Assembly: GCA_003990705.1 (NCBI GenBank)
Contig: AP018318.1
Coordinates: 1,615,501-1,679,500, forward strand
Length of the DNA stretch: 64,000 bases
Direction of reading: 5' to 3'
From: Nostoc sp. HK-01
Lineage (GTDB): Bacteria > Cyanobacteriota > Cyanobacteriia > Cyanobacteriales > Nostocaceae
The position numbers were made by a program, and so were the translations under genes. A model generated the notes under the pieces. That model was not told the DNA's origin. It saw only the letters and a program-made list of their open reading frames with translations, and did no database searches. How positions within the stretch are numbered: position 1 is the first letter of the stretch; the number at the start of each line of letters is the position of its first letter. This document shows positions 4,535 through 46,972 of the stretch, piece by piece.

Positions 4535-4645
4535 CTAGTACAACACGGCGGAAATAAACATACTATTCTAAATGGCGTAAAAGCCCAGAATACAACTCTT
4601 TTGACTTTTGACTTTTGACTTTTGACTTCCGCACAGCGGTACTAG
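4535..4645. repeat. CTAG-bounded dispersed repeat, copy A
   Basis: Begins CTAGTACAACACGGCGG and ends GGTACTAG. The core includes GGCGGAAATAAACA and a run of four TTTTGAC heptamers (about 4599-4627). It fills the gap between the convergent pfkA and uvrB genes. The terminal CTAG (4642-4645) supplies the TAG stop codon of uvrB on the minus strand. It is related to the copies at 10073, 37709 and 39383 but is the most diverged of the four. Confidence 0.6.
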
Positions 4646-6639
4646 TGTCCGATTAATTTATCTCGCAGATGTTTGATGCGATCGCGCAATTTTGCCGCTT
4701 CTTCAAATTCTAGTTTTTTGGAGGCATCTTTCATCTGTGCTTCTAGCTTGCCAATCAATCCGGGAATCTCTTCTAAAGGTAATTCGTCTATATGTTCATC
4801 TACAACTTTTAAGTCTGTAGCATTTAATCTACGAGATACATCTAAAAATGACAAAATGGCATTACTCGATTTTTTGACAATTGGTTGTGGTGTAATTCCA
4901 TGTATCCGGTTATATGCAGTTTGAATTCCACGTCTTCTGTCAGTTTCTTCAATGGCTCTAATCATGCTGTTGGTTAAATTATCAGCATATAAAATTGCTT
5001 GTCCATGAATGTGACGTGCGGCTCTACCAATAGTTTGAATTAAAGAGCGTTCAGCGCGCAAGAAACCTTCTTTATCAGCATCTAAAATTGCCACTAAAGA
5101 AACTTCTGGTAAATCTAAACCTTCCCGCAGCAAGTTTACCCCAACTAACACATCAAAATTGCCATCACGTAAATCTTGAATAATTTCAATCCGTTCAATC
5201 GAATTAATTTCTGAATGCAAATACCGCACCCGAACACTGTGGTCTTGCAAATATTCGGTCAAATCTTCCGCCATGCGTTTAGTTAACGTTGTAATCAACG
5301 TTCTTTCATGACGGTCAACTCTGTCTTTAATTTCTCCTAGCAAATCATCAATTTGTCCTTCGGTGGGACGCACAGAAATTTCTGGGTCAATTACACCAGT
5401 GGGACGGATTACTTGTTCAACTATGTGATTTTCAGAAATTTCTAATTCCCAATCTCCGGGTGTAGCGGAAACAAAAATACATTGGTTGACTTTTTGCCAA
5501 AATTCATCTGCTTTTAAAGGACGATTATCGGCGGCGCTGGGAAGACGAAATCCATGTTCAATTAAAACTTTTTTTCGAGCTTGGTCGCCGTTATACATAC
5601 CCCGAATTTGCGGCACAGTTACATGAGATTCATCAATTACTAATAGCCAATCTTTCGGGAAATAATCAATTAAACATTCTGGTGGTTCGCCTGCTTGTCG
5701 GCCTGCAAGGTGACGAGAATAGTTTTCGACACCGTTGCAGTAACCTACTTCCCGCAGCATTTCTAAGTCGTAACGAGTACGCTGATCTATGCGTTGTGCT
5801 TCTAATAATTTACCTGCTGTTTCTAATTCTAATTTTTGCTGTTTTAATTCAAAAGCAATATCGTCGCAAGCAACTTCTAATCGTTCTTCTGGGGTGACAA
5901 AGTGACGCGCTGGATAAATATTTACAGCATTCAAACTATTAATAATTTCGCCCGTCACAGGGTCAATATAGCGAATCGCATCAATTTCATCACCAAAAAA
6001 TTCGACCCGAATAATTCTATCTTCGTAGGCGGGGCCAATTTCTAAAACATCACCCCGCACACGAAAACGTCCCCGACCCATTTCTACATCGTTGCGGCTA
6101 TACTGCACAGATGCTAAATCACGCAAAACTTCCCGTTGATTGACTTCCATACCGATTTTTAAGGGTATGGCTGCTTTTAAGTATTCGGCGGGAATTCCTA
6201 AACCGTAAATACAGCTAATAGAAGCAACAACTATGACATCACGGCGTTCAAACAGCGATCGCGTCGCTGAATGACGCAACATATCAATTTCATCATTAAT
6301 CGCAGCTGTCTTTTCAATATAAGTATCTGTTACCGGAATATACGCTTCTGGTTGATAATAATCGTAGTAGCTGACAAAATACTCGACTGCATTTTGAGGA
6401 AAGAACTCACGTAACTCATTACAAAGTTGTGCAGCTAAAGTTTTGTTATGTGCCAAAACTAAAGTTGGTTTGCCAATTTTCTCAATTACTGCTGCTACTG
6501 TAAAGGTTTTGCCGGTTCCTGTGGCTCCCAGTAAGGTTTGGTAACGATTACCCGATTGGATACTGGAAACAAGTTGCGCGATCGCTTGTGGTTGATCGCC
6601 TGTAGGCGTAAAGGGAGCTTGAAGACAAAATTCTGTCAT
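4642..6639 (-). CDS. uvrB: Excinuclease ABC subunit B
   Basis: DNA-damage recognition helicase of nucleotide excision repair; it receives damaged DNA from UvrA and recruits UvrC. The 665-residue length is typical. Motifs in order: Walker [10 protein letters not shown] near residue 40, the beta-hairpin region [12 protein letters not shown] near 95, [10 protein letters not shown] near 340, helicase motifs V and VI ([27 protein letters not shown]), and a C-terminal UVR coiled-coil ([16 protein letters not shown]) that binds UvrC. The stop codon comes from the end of a dispersed repeat. I looked for a LexA-type operator upstream of the start and did not find one. Confidence 0.97.
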
Positions 6640-9683: not shown

Positions 9684-10076
9684 ATGTTTGTTAAAACAGA
9701 AATAAACAAAACAATAGAAATCAATAATTCTTATTTAAGCCGTGGTGAAGTTCAACAAGAGAAAACACAACCTCAAGGCTTAAACATTCCATCTGCAACT
9801 TTATATTTAAGTCCTATTGGTCTTCTTTTTAGTTGGATAATTTTTTTCCTAGTATTACGGAAAATCCAGAGGTTTCTGGATAATAAAATGGTATTTAGTG
9901 TCAAGAGATTACATCAAGTTCCTTGTAAAAATTGCCGATTTTATTCTAATAACCATTACCTTAAATGTGCAGTGCAGCCTTCTATTGTACTTACTGATGA
10001 AGCTAAAAACTGCTCTGAGTTTTCTGCCAAACAAGATAAGTTATCTGAAAAACAATTTTTTCACAGAAGAGACTAA
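9684..10076 (+). CDS. Small membrane protein with four-cysteine motif
   Basis: 130 residues. A polar N-terminus, one membrane helix (about residues 45-65, PIGLLFSWIIFFLVLRKI), then a cytosolic or lumenal tail with PCKNCRFYSNNHYLKCAVQP and, further on, EAKNCSEF. The spacing C-x2-C-x9-C-x16-C could bind a metal or an Fe-S cluster or form disulfides. I recall similar Cys-rich tails in small cyanobacterial proteins but cannot name the family. The TAA stop lies inside the first bases of the dispersed repeat that follows. Confidence 0.72.
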   Translation: MFVKTEINKTIEINNSYLSRGEVQQEKTQPQGLNIPSATLYLSPIGLLFSWIIFFLVLRKIQRFLDNKMVFSVKRLHQVPCKNCRFYSNNHYLKCAVQPSIVLTDEAKNCSEFSAKQDKLSEKQFFHRRD

Positions 10077-10265
10077 TATAGGTCGGCGTAAATAAACAGA
10101 CTCTCTGGAATTGTTAAAAGGCTTGTGGTGTCACTATTCTTTCTTTTTCCTTTTGACTCCTTCAGAATGACCCTGCTGCCTCGCTAACGCCACTTGCTTC
10201 TCCTAATCGGAGAAGCAATCGGTCTTCTCGGCGTAAGCGCAATTTCTACCAACTTGTACTACTAA
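10073..10265. repeat. CTAG-type dispersed repeat, copy B (enlarged)
   Basis: Starts CTAATATAGGTCGGCG and shares GTAAATAAACAGAC, TCTGGAATTG, AAAAGGCTTGTGGT and the pyrimidine-rich TTCTTTCTTTTTCC block with the copies at 37709 and 39383. An extra block of about 80 bp, including the perfect hairpin TTGCTTCTCC/GGAGAAGCAA (10194-10218), sits before the TTGTACTACTAA end. The left end supplies the TAA stop of the preceding gene. CTAA occurs at both outer edges. Confidence 0.65.
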
Positions 10266-36674: not shown

Positions 36675-37712
36675 ATGAATCTAGAACAAGAAACTAAAAT
36701 TGCAGGTATCTATGAAGTGTGTATTGGTGTTCCAGACCCAATTTTTGCCATACAATATTGGGAACAATTTGGTTATCGCATTGGACAAGTTGGTCAATTA
36801 CCTGCGGCGACAGCCCATCAATTATATGGAGTAAATTCTGGATTACGTTCCATTCGCCTATATCATCAAAATGCAGATCATGGGTTAATTCGGTTGATGG
36901 TTTGGCAAAATCCCACTAATCAAGGTTTGGGGTTAGCATCAATGAAAACAAAAGGAAATCGTTGGGCGACTACCCTAACTTCTGATATTTTAACTATTTT
37001 AAATCATGCCGAAGAAGCCAAAATGGCTGGTTTTACAGTGCGATATAGCATTCCCTATTGGGAAGTTATTTATAACAAAGAACGCAAAAGTCGTCCTTTT
37101 ATTGACCCAAGCGTAGGGGTGCGAGAAATGTTATTACTGCAACCTTTAGCGCGACAAGTTTTATTTCAAAGATTTGGTTACACAATACCTCATTACGGAA
37201 ACATTAACGCAGCATCTGTATTGAAAACTAGTCAATTTACTCATATTGGAATTGTCGTTCAAGATGATAGCAAAACTAGCCTGAAGTTTTATGAGGACAT
37301 TTTAGGTTTGTTGCGAGTGCGAGATGATGTCGAAACTAGCTATGAATCTTCACCCGCAGGACGAGATTTATTTGACCTCCAACCAGGAGAAAAATTTATA
37401 GTGACGACTTTTGATGATCCGCGTTCGTCTCAGACTGATATGATGGCGGCGCGGAGTGGCAGACTTTATGTAATTCGCTTCCCGGAGGCGATAAACTTAG
37501 AATCGCGGTTTGAAGCCGCACAACCAGGAAGTTTAGGGATGTCGCTGTATACTTATCGGGTGCAGGGAATCGAAGAATATGGCGATCGCATCAAGTCTAG
37601 TCAAGTGCTAAACTTTACTAACATTATCGAAAACGAGTTTCGAGAAAAAAGTTTCTCTTTTACCGCACCAGATGGCTATTTCTGGAACCTGGTCGAAACA
37701 GGTTTCAACTAG
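36675..37712 (+). CDS. VOC-family protein with two glyoxalase-like modules
   Basis: 345 residues. The N-terminal module (GIYEVCIGVPDPIFAIQYWEQFGYRIGQVG) and the C-terminal module from about residue 190 (FTHIGIVVQDDSKTSLKFYEDILGLLRVRDD, then FTAPDGYFWNLVE) each have the beta-alpha-beta3 pattern of the vicinal oxygen chelate superfamily. Possible roles are dioxygenase, glyoxalase or ligand binding; the metal-ligand set is not clear enough to choose. The TAG stop (37710-37712) lies in the CTAG that begins the dispersed repeat copy following it. Confidence 0.82.
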   Translation: MNLEQETKIAGIYEVCIGVPDPIFAIQYWEQFGYRIGQVGQLPAATAHQLYGVNSGLRSIRLYHQNADHGLIRLMVWQNPTNQGLGLASMKTKGNRWATTLTSDILTILNHAEEAKMAGFTVRYSIPYWEVIYNKERKSRPFIDPSVGVREMLLLQPLARQVLFQRFGYTIPHYGNINAASVLKTSQFTHIGIVVQDDSKTSLKFYEDILGLLRVRDDVETSYESSPAGRDLFDLQPGEKFIVTTFDDPRSSQTDMMAARSGRLYVIRFPEAINLESRFEAAQPGSLGMSLYTYRVQGIEEYGDRIKSSQVLNFTNIIENEFREKSFSFTAPDGYFWNLVETGFN

Positions 37713-37836
37713 CATAGATCGACCGACGTAAATAAATAGACCACACTCAGTAACCATCTGGAATTACGAAAAGGCTTGTGGTATCACTATTCTTTCTTTT
37801 TCCTTTTGACTTTTTACTTTTACCTTGTTGTACTAG
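37709..37836. repeat. CTAG-bounded dispersed repeat, copy C
   Basis: CTAG at 37709-37712 and again at 37833-37836. The core has GACGTAAATAAATAGACC, CATCTGGAATTACG, AAAAGGCTTGTGGTATCACTA, TTCTTTCTTTTTCC and TTGTTGTACTAG. The left CTAG gives the stop of the VOC gene. The right 17 bases encode the last residues and stop of the convergent methyltransferase gene. Same orientation as copy D at 39383. Confidence 0.78.
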
Positions 37837-38264
37837 CAACTGGTTTTTCAAATATCATCAAATGCTGCTGGGGTAATAAGTTTTTTGTCTCGCGCCAAAC
37901 TAAACCAACAGCCTGCATTTCTTTCCGTACCTGGTTTTGCGTCATCTTGTGCAGACGTTTAATCATAATTAAGGGATTTTCCCCGCGGTACTCTACCAGT
38001 ACCACCCTACCCCCCGGTTTTAAGGCTTTGACAATTCCTTGCATCACTTCGTAAGGATATGCAAATTCATGATAAGCATCCACCATTAAAGCCAAATTAA
38101 CACTTGCATCAGGCAGGTTAGGATTATCAATCGTTGCTAAAATTGGCTTAACATTAGTAATTTTTTTCTCTTGTTTATAAGCTTGAATAATCTCTAACAT
38201 TTCTGGCTGAATATCTACAGCCAACACCTTTCCTTGAGGTAATAAAGGTGCAATCAAAAAACTC

Positions 38265-39018
38265 GGCGTTGCATAATAGAGGGATGAATTGAGGTAATCT
38301 ACTGTGCAATGTCCATACTGTGAGTCTACGGAAATTAGAAAGAATGGAAAACGGAGAGGTAAACAAAATCACATCTGTACTAACTGCGATCGCCAATTTA
38401 TTGATGTGTACGATCCGCCAAAAGGATACTCAGAGGAACTTAAACAAGAATGTTTAAAAATGTATCTTAATGGGATGGGTTTTCGTGGGATTGAACGTGT
38501 TAAAGGTGTACATCATACTACTATAATCTCTTGGGTAAAACAAAGAGGAGAAAAGCTGCCAGACGTACCCCAAGAAGATGCTGTACCAGAAGTTGGAGAA
38601 CTAGATGAATTAGAGACATTCATAGGTTCAAAAAAAACAAAATCTGGTTGTGGACAGCAGTAAATCACTTTACTCAAGGTATTTTAGCCTGGGTCTTAGG
38701 AGACCATAGTGCGGAAACATTCGAGCCATTATGGGAAATTGTGAAACAGTGGGAAAGCTATTTTTATGTGACCGATGGCTGGAAAGTTTACCCCAGTTTT
38801 ATACCAGATGGAGACCAAATTGTGAGTAAAACATATATGACGCGAGTAGAAAATGAAAATACCCGATTACGTCATTATCTTGCACGCCTTCACAGAAAAA
38901 CTTTATGCTATTCCAAATCAGAACAAATGCTGAGACACTCAATTAAATTATTACTTCATTATTTGAAGTATCAAATTGTACCTATATAAATTAATTCATC
39001 CCTTTATTCAGCAACGCC
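38265..39018 (+). mobile_element. IS1-family insertion sequence (754 bp)
   Basis: Inverted ends GGCGTTGCATAATAG.../...ATTCAGCAACGCC; on the outward-reading strands these are GGCGTTGC followed by A or TG and a shared AGGGATGAATT. The GG-x-G-x-TGCTG start resembles classical IS1. Direct repeats AAAACTC at 38258-38264 and 39019-39025 are the target duplication. It carries insA- and insB'-like frames joined through a run of eight A. Element and ends look intact, so it may be active. Confidence 0.95.
38304..38989 (+). CDS. IS1-family transposase InsAB' (programmed -1 frameshift)
   Basis: InsA-like part 38304-38663: zinc ribbon CPYCESTEIRKNGKRRGKQNHICTNC, then a helix-turn-helix (GIERVKGVHHTTIISWVKQ). 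InsB'-like part to 38989: WTAVNHFTQGILAWVLGDHSAETFEPLW, then FYVTDGWKVYPSFIP, ENENTRLRHYLARLHRKTLCYSKSEQML, the DDE-type catalytic region of IS1. The frames overlap at eight consecutive A (38630-38637) followed by C, a slippery site where a -1 shift gives the continuous transposase. Without the shift only the DNA-binding InsA repressor is made. Confidence 0.93.
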
Positions 39019-39382: not shown

Positions 39383-39490
39383 CTAGTACAGGTCGGCGTA
39401 AATAAACAGACCATCTGGAATTGCTAAAAGGCTTGTAGTATTACTATTCTTTCTTTCTTTTTCCTTTTGACTTTTGACTTGTTGTACTAG
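39383..39490. repeat. CTAG-bounded dispersed repeat, copy D (reference copy, 108 bp)
   Basis: CTAGTACAGGTCGGCG at the left and TTGTTGTACTAG at the right, so CTAG flanks short inverted ends TACA/TGTA. The core holds GTAAATAAACAGACCATC, GGAATTGCTAAAAGGCTTGT, TTCTTTCTTTCTTTTTCC and a TTTTGAC heptamer run. The right CTAG (39487-39490) supplies the TAG stop of the histidine kinase gene on the minus strand. Confidence 0.82.
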
Positions 39491-41475
39491 CGGATTGGAA
39501 TTGTAATCACAAATTCTGTACCCCTGTCTGGTAGAGAAATACATTGTAATGACCCACGATGTTTTTCTGTAACTATCTGGTAACTAATTGATAAGCCTAG
39601 ACCGGTTCCTTTACCAATTGGTTTAGTAGTAAAAAACGGATCAAATAAACGACTTTGTACTTTTTGGGGAATTCCTGTCCCATTATCAGCAATATGAATG
39701 CAGATATTTTCATTTTCACATTCAGAAGAAATGCGAATTATTGGCTGTTGACAGAGCTTTTTTTCCCAAGCTTCATCTAAAGCATCAATTGCATTTGCCA
39801 AGATATTCATAAATACTTGATTTAATTGACCTGCAAAACATTTGATATGCGGCATTTCGCAATACTCTTTAATTACTTGAATTTCTGGGCGATGAGTTTG
39901 AGCTTTAAGGCGGTGCTTCAAAATTAACAAAGTACTATCTATGCCGTCATGCACATTAGCAGTTTTAAATTCAGCTTCATCTAAACGCGAGAAAATTCGC
40001 AGAGAAAGAACAATTTGATGAATACGTTCAGCACCTACTTTCATGGAAGTCAAGATTTTAGGCAAGTCTTGGATAATATATTCAATCTCAACTTCTTTCA
40101 TGACATCTTGAATATTAGAATCTGGATTAGGGTAATACTTTTGATAAAGTTGAATTAGTTGCAGTATATCTTTCACATAATTTTCGGCATATTCAACATT
40201 ACCATAAATAAAAGTTACCGGATTATTAATTTCATGAGCTACACCAGCAACTAACTGTCCTAAAGAAGACATTTTTTCAGTTTGAATCAATTGAGATTGA
40301 GTTTGCTTAAGCTCATTTAGAGTATTTTTTAAGTCAAGATTTTTTTGCTCAACTTCTTTAGTCCTTTCTTTGATTTTCTGCTCTAAATTTTGGTTATATG
40401 CTTCTAATTTAGCTTTTGCTTGATACTGTTCTGTTAAAAGTTGTTTTACTTGTTGAATTAACTGATTTAAAGAAATAGCTAGAACACCAACTTCATCTTC
40501 AGTAGTGACAGGCGCTTGTAAATCAAAATTAGCATCTTTTGTCACTTTTTTGGCAATCTGCGTTACAGCTTGCAAAGGGCGGGTAATTTTGTTGCCAATT
40601 AAATATCCTATGAATGTAACAATTGTACCTCCCAATAAAAACAAAAGATATAGCCGTAGCCAAAGTGAAGATTGAGTTTTTTCTAATTGCAATATTGGAT
40701 AAAGTATAGTTGTAATTAAAGATTGACTTGCTCCTTTAAATACAATACTTTTAGCAAAATATGCTTGTTGTTGAATTGATGTTTTAATGGTGGACGAATT
40801 AGGCGAAGGCGGCTGCCATTTTGTTTCTTTAATATCTGATAGCGTTGATGCAATAATTGTGTCTTTTTTTGTTGTAACTATGTCTTTGGAGGAACCAACA
40901 GCAATTTGTTTTAAAAATGACTCATCTACTAAATTACCCATAATAATTCCACCTACAATTTTTATAGAAGATTTGATTGGGTGAATTACTACTTGTAAAA
41001 TTTGTAGACTATCTTCTACATCAATAAAATCAATAAAGCTACCACCGCTCTTAGCAATGTTAGTAATAGATTTATCAAGTAATTTAGATGTAACTAAACT
41101 AGATTTTCTTGTATCCAATAAAGTATTGCCATTAGTATTAACTACTTTTATCCAATCTAAATTCAAAGTAGTTCTAATAGGGAGTAAATCTTGTAGAAGT
41201 TTTTGTTTATCTTTTTGTTCAATTGCTAAGGTAATTGTCTCACGCCCAGCAATCAAATTTACTTGTGTTTCCAAATCTTCCTGTTCATGTTGAAAATCTT
41301 GGTAAACTCTTTCTGCAAAACTTGCGACTTCTTGGCGAATGTTCTGCTCAAGACTATCAGTAAACCAATGTCCAATGATGGATAAACACAATATAAATAT
41401 GCTCAAAAATATAGCTAGAGATGAAAAAACTATTTTTTGGCTGAGATTAAAGCGTAAGCGAAATTTTCTTCGCAT
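39487..41475 (-). CDS. Sensor histidine kinase
   Basis: 662 residues from ATG 41475 (the frame is open to 41559, but that part overlaps the preceding gene). A membrane helix near residue 15-40 and a second near 270-290 enclose a periplasmic sensor domain of about 225 residues. Then come HAMP (ITRPLQAVTQIAKKV), a long coiled coil, the H box HEINNPVTFIYG, N box NILANAIDAL, G1 DNGTGIP, F box FDPFFTTK and G2 GKGTGLGLS. It autophosphorylates and would signal to an unlinked regulator. It follows the broken binding-protein gene by 16 bp, so the two probably formed one operon. Confidence 0.92.
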   Translation of the reverse strand: MRRKFRLRFNLSQKIVFSSLAIFLSIFILCLSIIGHWFTDSLEQNIRQEVASFAERVYQDFQHEQEDLETQVNLIAGRETITLAIEQKDKQKLLQDLLPIRTTLNLDWIKVVNTNGNTLLDTRKSSLVTSKLLDKSITNIAKSGGSFIDFIDVEDSLQILQVVIHPIKSSIKIVGGIIMGNLVDESFLKQIAVGSSKDIVTTKKDTIIASTLSDIKETKWQPPSPNSSTIKTSIQQQAYFAKSIVFKGASQSLITTILYPILQLEKTQSSLWLRLYLLFLLGGTIVTFIGYLIGNKITRPLQAVTQIAKKVTKDANFDLQAPVTTEDEVGVLAISLNQLIQQVKQLLTEQYQAKAKLEAYNQNLEQKIKERTKEVEQKNLDLKNTLNELKQTQSQLIQTEKMSSLGQLVAGVAHEINNPVTFIYGNVEYAENYVKDILQLIQLYQKYYPNPDSNIQDVMKEVEIEYIIQDLPKILTSMKVGAERIHQIVLSLRIFSRLDEAEFKTANVHDGIDSTLLILKHRLKAQTHRPEIQVIKEYCEMPHIKCFAGQLNQVFMNILANAIDALDEAWEKKLCQQPIIRISSECENENICIHIADNGTGIPQKVQSRLFDPFFTTKPIGKGTGLGLSISYQIVTEKHRGSLQCISLPDRGTEFVITIPIR

Positions 41476-41874
41476 GGCGGTGATGATGAATTTAATTGCT
41501 AGGAATAAAGCTTTTATCTTGCAGTAGTTTATGACCTTCAGAGCTAAAGATAAAATCAATAAATTTTTGAGTGGTAGGTGTAGGTGCTTTCTGCCAAATA
41601 ACTCCTAGATGACGCACCATTTGGTATTTACCATTAGTAAAATTATCTTTGTTTGGCTCAATACCATTTAGTTTAAGGCGATTGACTGGTAATTGATTAA
41701 TTGCAGAATAAGCTAAAGAAAAAGCACCAATTGAATAGGGAGTGCTTTGTAAAGTATCAATTAGCTCTCCTTCTTTATTTAAAATGACAGCTTTAGTAGT
41801 GCTTTTATCTTGACCTAAATAGTATTTTCGCAGTAATTTTTTAGCAGACTCATCTTCTGGTCTATCCAAAACTA

Positions 41875-46227: not shown

Positions 46228-46540
46228 GAGTATGATTTGTTTATCCTGGAAGCTAGGGAAACATCTTTAACGTAAAGGATACCCAGGATAAATCCTTTAC
46301 CTTATCTTTATGGCACTGATAATGACATTCCGACAACTGTTTACAGTAAATTAAATAGAATTTGTGTATTGCGTGTAAGCCCAGCCCGTTAGAGACATTG
46401 CTTTTATATGACAACCCACTACTAACTTTGGTATTTTCATCATCTCCTGGGTAGTGGTAAAAAGTACCCGAAAAGCGATCGCATTTCTGGATTAGTAATT
46501 TGTGTTGTTGTAGAATCTGAGCCACTATCGTCTATTTAGG

Positions 46541-46771
46541 TACTTCAATACGATATTTGGGTACTTTAATACGATATTTGGGTACTTCAATACGATATTT
46601 GAGTACTTCAATATGATATTTGGGTACTTCAATATGATATTTGGGTACTTCAATATGATATTTGGGTACTTCAATACGATATTCGGGTACTCCAATACGA
46701 TATTCGGGTACTTCAATATGATATTCAGATACTCCAATACGATATTCGGATACTTCAATACGATATTTAAG
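46541..46771. repeat. 21-bp minisatellite, 11 copies
   Basis: Eleven head-to-tail copies of a 21-base unit whose commonest form is TACTTCAATACGATATTTGGG, with single-base variants (C or T at several positions, a few G/A). The array ends exactly at 46771. The unit contains no stop in one frame of either strand, so both strands show spurious ORFs (YFNTIFG or YPNIVLK repeats). There is no spacer variation, so it is not a CRISPR. Confidence 0.95.
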
Positions 46772-46972
46772 AACTCAACAGCAAAAAAACATAAATTTTA
46801 TACTTTTAATTATAATATTTTTCAGTATAATTAGTGAATAAATATTAGATTTTACTGTAACTATACTTTAGTTTTAGTTGTTATTGCTCAGGTCAAGAAA
46901 GATAGCAGATAGCTAGAGTAAAAATATAAGTTTGCATCAATTTTTACAGGATATTCAGTAGAAAAGGTATAT

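Follow-up and report, generated by a model that had tools for sequence, protein, structure and literature searches.

IS630 of Shigella, ISY100 of Synechocystis and the IS630-Tc1-mariner group to which they belong use a DDE transposase and duplicate TA upon insertion, according to the available text of PMC2170065, where the title of a cited study (Tenzen and Ohtsubo 1991) also points to a preference of IS630 for the TA of 5'-CTAG-3'. Small repeats related to such transposons are known as well. In Streptococcus pneumoniae, the accessible parts of two reports describe RUP as a 107-bp repeat associated with IS630-Spn1, with a TA target and IS630-like terminal repeats (PMC2229807), that is found in excess between convergent genes (PMC3049150). 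BOX, another repeat of this species, is stated there to supply the stop codon of 36 genes with no clear truncation (PMC3049150), and the ends of GTAG-tagged REPs often provide the TAG stop of flanking genes (PMC3733652, in the text available). Small gene-end repeats that supply stop codons are thus already published. In cyanobacteria, the MITE Nezha has been proposed to be mobilised by ISNpu3-like elements (as summarised in PMC3049150), and PMC3542288 reports 147 complete or partial type II MITEs of 77-541 bp in Anabaena sp. 90, 132 of them intergenic, with no matching IS.

The window considered here, i.e., the whole stretch of 64,000 nucleotides that was analysed, corresponds to C1:1615501-1679500 of the 7.52-Mb genome of Nostoc sp. 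HK-01 (G000). It carries four related repeats, at 4535-4645, 10073-10265, 37709-37836 and 39383-39490, exactly where a sequence-only reading had placed them. This is not a chance likeness, because blastn of the 39383 copy against G000 yields 45 matches that correspond, by eye, to 21 elements and two end fragments, the rest covering a T/C-rich heptamer only. The same reading had attributed a common core to all four repeats, and TACA and TGTA just inside a flanking CTAG to three. Strictly, the latter applies to the 39383 repeat alone (the 4535 repeat reads TACA...GGTA and the 37709 repeat CATA...TGTA), and 4535-4645 lacks the AAAAGGCTTGTGGT core and falls in a diverged subfamily, with an HMM E value of 2.9e-11, where those of the three remaining repeats lie between 1e-21 and 3e-30.

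The reference copy, GTACAGG...TTGTAC, spans 102 bp (39386-39487, forward strand) between TA duplications at 39384-39385 and 39488-39489 and is matched by the HMM over its full length. The copy at 37712-37833 (forward strand; TA duplications at 37710-37711 and 37834-37835) contains a short insert, ACACTCAGTAACC, and has exact empty sites in relatives. The diverged copy, of subfamily 2, lies at 4538-4642 on the forward strand (GTACAACACGGCGGAAATAAAC...GCACAGCGGTAC, with TA at 4536-4537 and 4643-4644); subfamily-2 matches are also present at other sites in G000, G004, G007 and G010. Finally, the copy at 10076-10259 (forward strand) has CTAA on its left, a mutated left end (TA followed by ATATAGG) and GTACTACTAA at its right end, and another repeat nested inside interrupts it from about 10157. 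This second repeat, CTCCTTCAGA...GCTAACGCCACTTGCTTCTCC, occupies 10157-10250 of the window and similarly replaces or interrupts the right half of MITE copies at L008, L015 and L028. An insert like ACACTTCGACTACGCTCAGTGA lies near the GACC/CATCTGGAATTG junction in four further copies (L010, L012, L013 and L016) and could itself be a tiny mobile repeat. Elsewhere in the window, 46491-46817 is an array with a 21-base unit, present in 11 overlapping register copies.

The family is well represented in the genus. At E 1e-6, matches were obtained in 17 of 31 genomes, namely 11 of 11 of the genus, six of eight others of the family and none of 12 from other families, with one to 29 matches per genome in the genus, the weakest of which may cover the heptamer only; G000 itself holds about 20 copies. 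On plasmids, one MITE-like match was found, on pANACY.02 of Anabaena cylindrica PCC 7122. Anatomy was described from seven genomes of the genus, among whose listed matches (the best ~28 scored per genome) 139 were considered; 117 have both ends, and the 22 partial copies were excluded from the end and site counts. The full copies have a median length of 111 bp including CTAG (range 97-142), a mean pairwise identity of 82%, reaching 99% for the closest same-genome pairs (G000, G004 and G006), and a consensus that starts with CTAGTACAGGTCGGCGTAAATAAACAGACC and ends with CTTGTTGTACTAG. As expected of a MITE, these many copies of like length (117 full) contain no transposase gene; the proposal of a small non-autonomous transposon is supported.

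CTAG is present on both sides of 80 of the 117 full copies, and the target is best written N-TA-N. The sequence-only reading had favoured an IS5-type MITE duplicating a 4-bp YTAR, which fits most of the non-CTAG targets, and the 80 CTAG/CTAG copies are compatible with either model. Duplication of a non-CTAG target of 4 bp, however, requires a concerted, complementary pair of tetramers, and no such pair exists among the 117 copies. Instead, each tetramer of a copy varies on its own, for the most part in its outer base (CTAG/TTAG in 10 copies, TTAG/CTAG in four, ATAG/CTAG in four): the outer C is absent from 30 of 234 ends, the nearly fixed inner G from eight. The element with the same ends, moreover, is of IS630 type by NCBIfam and Pfam, not IS5. 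Duplication of YTAR was consequently rejected, and an IS5-type origin is highly improbable. As the outer base varies alone and never in concert, the duplication comprises only TA, which leaves GTAC...GTAC as the element. The target-site duplication, seen in the 117 full copies and at empty sites, is TA, as in IS630/Tc1-mariner, and CTAG is the preferred target; the idea of a YTAR-like, mostly CTAG target therefore stands, and that of its duplication does not. Away from stops, the empty site of L128 is one CTAG, and those of L336 and L094, both exact, read CCAG and CTGG, respectively, not CTAG, which indicates that mutation blurs the target.

The ends were also compared with those of IS elements. 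A DDE_3 transposase search of the genus gave 123 matches, and ends were checked at 30 of them. At one, L164 in G007, ends of the MITE family border the transposase, in a broken element of about 1.5 kb with CTAG outside both ends. Its transposase scores 107.5 bits for DDE_3 and 106.4 bits for NF033545, and, of 80 family genomes, 13 contain relatives of the fragment. The left end of the MITE is identical to that of L164 at 28 of 30 bases, the right end at only 19 of 30, so that the terminal repeats are shared with an IS630-family element mainly on the left; the same asymmetry is seen across IS ends, with 21 to 25 of 27-30 bases for the left end (G050, G054 and G034) and a weaker likeness, 13 to 19 of 27-30, for the right. 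Better preserved relatives exist outside the genus. In G054, which belongs to another genus, there are 15 matches, 14 over the full query, four of these in a 418-codon open frame; an intact transposase of 400 aa from this genome, with like ends, scores 196 bits for NF033545 (IS630 cut-off 100) and 114 bits for DDE_3. G050 has eight copies, whose open frames span 238 to 272 codons. Depending on border choice, these related Nostocales IS measure 1,318 to 1,328 bp (~1.33 kb), and their ends read roughly GTACAG...CGGCGKAAATAAA. Annotated transposase relatives are also found on plasmids of Nostoc edaphicum, Brasilonema and Calothrix.

Within the genus, the broken G007 copy, which belongs to another species than the window, is the one trace of a parent: no intact one was found among the 30 of 123 DDE_3 matches checked, and G007 alone gave a close transposase match. 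G000 has no transposase match at E 1e-20 (best 1.4e-9), and no close relative was found in G004 or G006 either, the three genomes whose MITE copies are up to 99% alike. Since G000 lacks a close transposase relative, mobilisation is deduced from the ends. Taken together, these likenesses suggest that the repeats are type-I MITEs derived from an IS630-family transposon.

All four repeats of the window contact a gene end, as had been noted from the letters alone: the terminal tetramers contain the stops of uvrB, the gene at 9684, the VOC gene and the histidine kinase gene. The clearest case is the VOC/glyoxalase gene (36675-37712, forward strand), whose TAG lies at 37710-37712. In G001, G002, G007 and Nostoc sp. 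LEGE 06077, the empty site reads AACTAG, with a single CTAG whose TAG is already the VOC stop; the stop thus predates the insertion. The same holds more broadly, since exact empty sites in which the in-frame stop already exists were found for eight distinct genes: VOC, L337, L302, L123, L316, L118, L305/L291 (L291 being the orthologue of L305) and L144. In each of these eight cases, the element-free relative has one NTAN, whose TA is part of the same existing stop. Landing on TAG or TAA stops without harm to the gene, as the sequence-only reading had proposed, is hence borne out. For L090 (both copies), L333, L314, L109, L304, L284, uvrB, the histidine kinase and window 10073, the search returned no exact empty site.

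A wider comparison of gene ends, covering 17 of 19 (L117 was left out, 60 of the listed orthologue places were taken, and the search gave no match for L295 and L322), found the same-codon ending in 82 of 94 comparisons at stop-coincident sites, some of them redundant. The 12 comparisons lacking such a stop are those of L284 (0/3) and L133 (0/2) and some of those at L090, L314 and window 10073 (G007, G010 and G005). L133 was discarded as a stop-coincident gene, as it has an exact empty site, yet its relatives have no in-frame gene there; the status of L295, L284 and L314, all short ORFs, as genes is also doubtful.

At other gene ends of the window, the history is more intricate. The uvrB gene (4642-6639, reverse strand) ends with TAG at 4642-4644, and the same codon is TAA or TAG in relatives. 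The TAG of the histidine kinase gene (39487-41559, reverse strand) lies at 39487-39489, its TA coming from the target and its G from the element; this stop is TAA (CTAA) in three element-free relatives and TAG in G000, G008 and G001. For both genes, a TAA-to-TAG step at insertion is inferred, the far flank being rearranged or non-syntenic. Such a change is likewise unproved at L302 and L123, where the relatives have CTAA, because the far flank of the filled copy reads CTAG or CTAT. At the histidine kinase stop, G008 has the same MITE copy as G000. In G001 (L221/L243), the very codon occupied by the MITE in G000 and G008 carries another element, CTAGTACAATAAGGAGTG...TTTTCGTACTAG, whose ends are TAGTA. 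A similar situation is met at the 130-aa gene at 9684, whose TAA (10074-10076, forward strand) has its last base inside the element end. Five orthologous loci were compared. In G008 and G001, the corresponding codon is a stop within CTAG, with another element end there; G005 shares the tetramer, but lacks a frame of 60 codons that ends in a stop; and in G007 (CCAG) and G010 (CGAG) there is no stop at that codon. By eye, the end in G008, G001 and G005 resembles subfamily 2. These re-used stops could reflect either recurrent insertion or exchange of elements.

A further end observation of the sequence-only reading, a methyltransferase whose end is read from a repeat, was also confirmed. This gene (37820-38257, reverse strand), convergent with VOC, enters the 37709 copy in frame f1, so that 37820-37836 (reverse strand) supplies its last residues, and stops at a TAA 14 bases past the outer C; its G008 orthologue has the same element-encoded ending. 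The 145-aa protein is the 3' part of a gene that spans 252 codons in G008 and is cut here by an IS1-type element (DDE_Tnp_IS1). This element, at 38265-39018 of the window and with ends GGCGTTGC.., has ten other copies in G000 with 99-100% identity.

Stops could alternatively be created by truncation, an element landing in the last codons so that its own TAG ends the gene. In nine of the 117 copies a gene does run into the element, as the methyltransferase does, and a same-codon stop is absent at L284 and in two relatives of window 10073. However, an in-frame TAG cannot exist inside a gene at a CTAG target, and unfilled relatives of eight distinct genes end at the same codon. On the strength of these same-codon ends, truncation was rejected as the main source of stops, a role for which we consider it very improbable.

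How often copies coincide with stops was assessed by calling genes in one and the same way, with a simple greedy ORF rule, around the copies and in the control, the null CTAGs being drawn from the same genome stretches as the copies. A gene stop lies exactly at an element end in 21 of 117 full copies (an initial count, which defined genes less strictly and included L133, gave 25 of 139 matches). With orthologous sites counted once and those of the window set aside, 16 of 102 sites are at stops, versus 53 of 1,352 CTAGs that could take an insertion without gene disruption (odds ratio 4.6, P 9e-6), in line with the enrichment anticipated; the figures are 13 of 102 versus 46 of 1,497 at a 100-codon threshold and 10 of 102 versus 38 of 1,755 at 150 codons, and counts at 70 codons may include L133. 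The copies are also abundant in convergent gaps (38 of 117, versus 158 of 1,251 for the control) and scarce in divergent ones (18 of 117 versus 458 of 1,251). When only sites with a gene 3' end no more than 100 bp away are compared, the excess at stops drops to about 2-fold (P 0.023, 0.042 and 0.13 at the three thresholds, not significant at 150 codons), so that coincidence with stops mainly reflects a bias towards 3' ends. Of the 17 matches that G000 has outside the window, two coincide with a stop, one of them at a gene that is not credible, which makes the window's four of four a lucky draw. The gene-end niche that had been suggested thus survives as an excess at stops, with the window itself atypical, 16 of 102 sites elsewhere, and mostly a general bias towards 3' ends.

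Three features probably account jointly for this pattern. A transposase of this IS630 clade would cut the MITE out and paste it into TA. Both element ends begin with G, such that a TA followed by A or G becomes a TAG stop, whichever the strand; this first base, by rebuilding the stop, is the reason why the element would be tolerated at gene ends. Finally, insertions at stops or just downstream of genes would survive, while those in genes or promoters would be purged by selection. The stop pattern points to TA targeting, a healing terminal base and survivorship, not to a separate targeting system, and we assign a probability of about 0.86 to this reading, namely an IS630-derived MITE whose TA targeting, healing G and survivorship explain the stops.

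Survivorship is the likely cause of the bias because related IS copies do interrupt reading frames. In G050 and G054, 21 of 22 IS copies have resolved ends, all 21 with CTAG on both sides. Once the flanks are joined, an open frame longer than 150 codons is seen to be split at six of the 21 sites, 30 codons or more before its end. At three sites, the break in a long open frame falls no further than 10 codons from its end, and none of the 21 copies coincides with the stop of a frame that has a start codon; the sample is small and from other genera, and open frames were taken as such, not as verified genes. These figures also bear on the possibility that the insertion machinery itself prefers stops or gene 3' ends, for instance via transcription or supercoiling at terminators. 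Such a preference would fit the strong enrichment at stops and in convergent gaps, the presence of different elements at the same stop in different species (histidine kinase and window 10073) and the three IS copies within 10 codons of a long frame's end, but copies deep in open frames, together with 0 of 21 at a stop, argue against it as far as few copies from other genera allow, and we regard it as unlikely.

The 3'-end position could alternatively mean that the repeat is a part useful to the host, such as a transcription terminator or a structured RNA. One folded subfamily-2 copy is indeed more stable than its shuffles (z -3.2 and -3.1), whereas two folded copies of subfamily 1 are no better than theirs (z -0.5, -1.5, 1.8 and 0.4). 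Rfam matches nothing in the window but a tRNA, a terminator-like site is absent from the two copies within the scanned stretch, and orthologous sites exist without the element. Because subfamily 1 folds about as well as its shuffles, with no Rfam match and no terminator-like site, this role was rejected and appears quite unlikely.

The preferred reading, an IS630-derived MITE healing the stops at which it lands, offers a base-level account, with empty sites, of a small transposon inserted exactly on stop codons with the protein unchanged; it predicts that TA-inserting elements starting with G or A are found at stops more often than those starting with C or T. A literature search that included pieces of the element returned no paper on this MITE, and none using empty sites to show that a TA-inserting element rebuilds its stop; an earlier description of the family, for instance in work on Nezha, on PCC 7120 IS or on small cyanobacterial repeats, is possible. 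More speculatively, stops could be a general safe harbour for purine-ended TA-inserting elements, as TA followed by either purine would always give back a stop on both strands, with survivorship favouring G or A as first base and the same stop being re-used. We hold this to be a doubtful generalisation, which, if true, would cover the re-use of the histidine kinase and window 10073 stops by different elements.

Among the systems described above, GTAG-tagged REPs share the provision of stops, but are short palindromes linked to RAYT tyrosine transposases in the available text of PMC3733652, unlike the IS630-like Nostoc MITE, which is about 111 bp long with GTAC ends and IS630-type repeats and not a 20-40 bp palindrome tagged GTAG. 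BOX likewise supplies stops, but is tied to ISSpn2, and the part of PMC3049150 considered compares orthologues with no exact empty site at a stop. By description only, Nezha may belong to the same family as the Nostoc MITE, and the Anabaena sp. 90 MITEs, also cyanobacterial, differ in having no matching IS. With the IS630 family, as presented in the accessible text, the Nostoc repeat has TA duplication and CTAG preference in common, differing as a non-autonomous derivative. RUP is the nearest analogue by form: its host is unrelated, and landing on stop codons is not mentioned in the available parts of PMC2229807 and PMC3049150, but the two repeats are alike in size, TA target, IS630-like ends and excess in convergent gaps.
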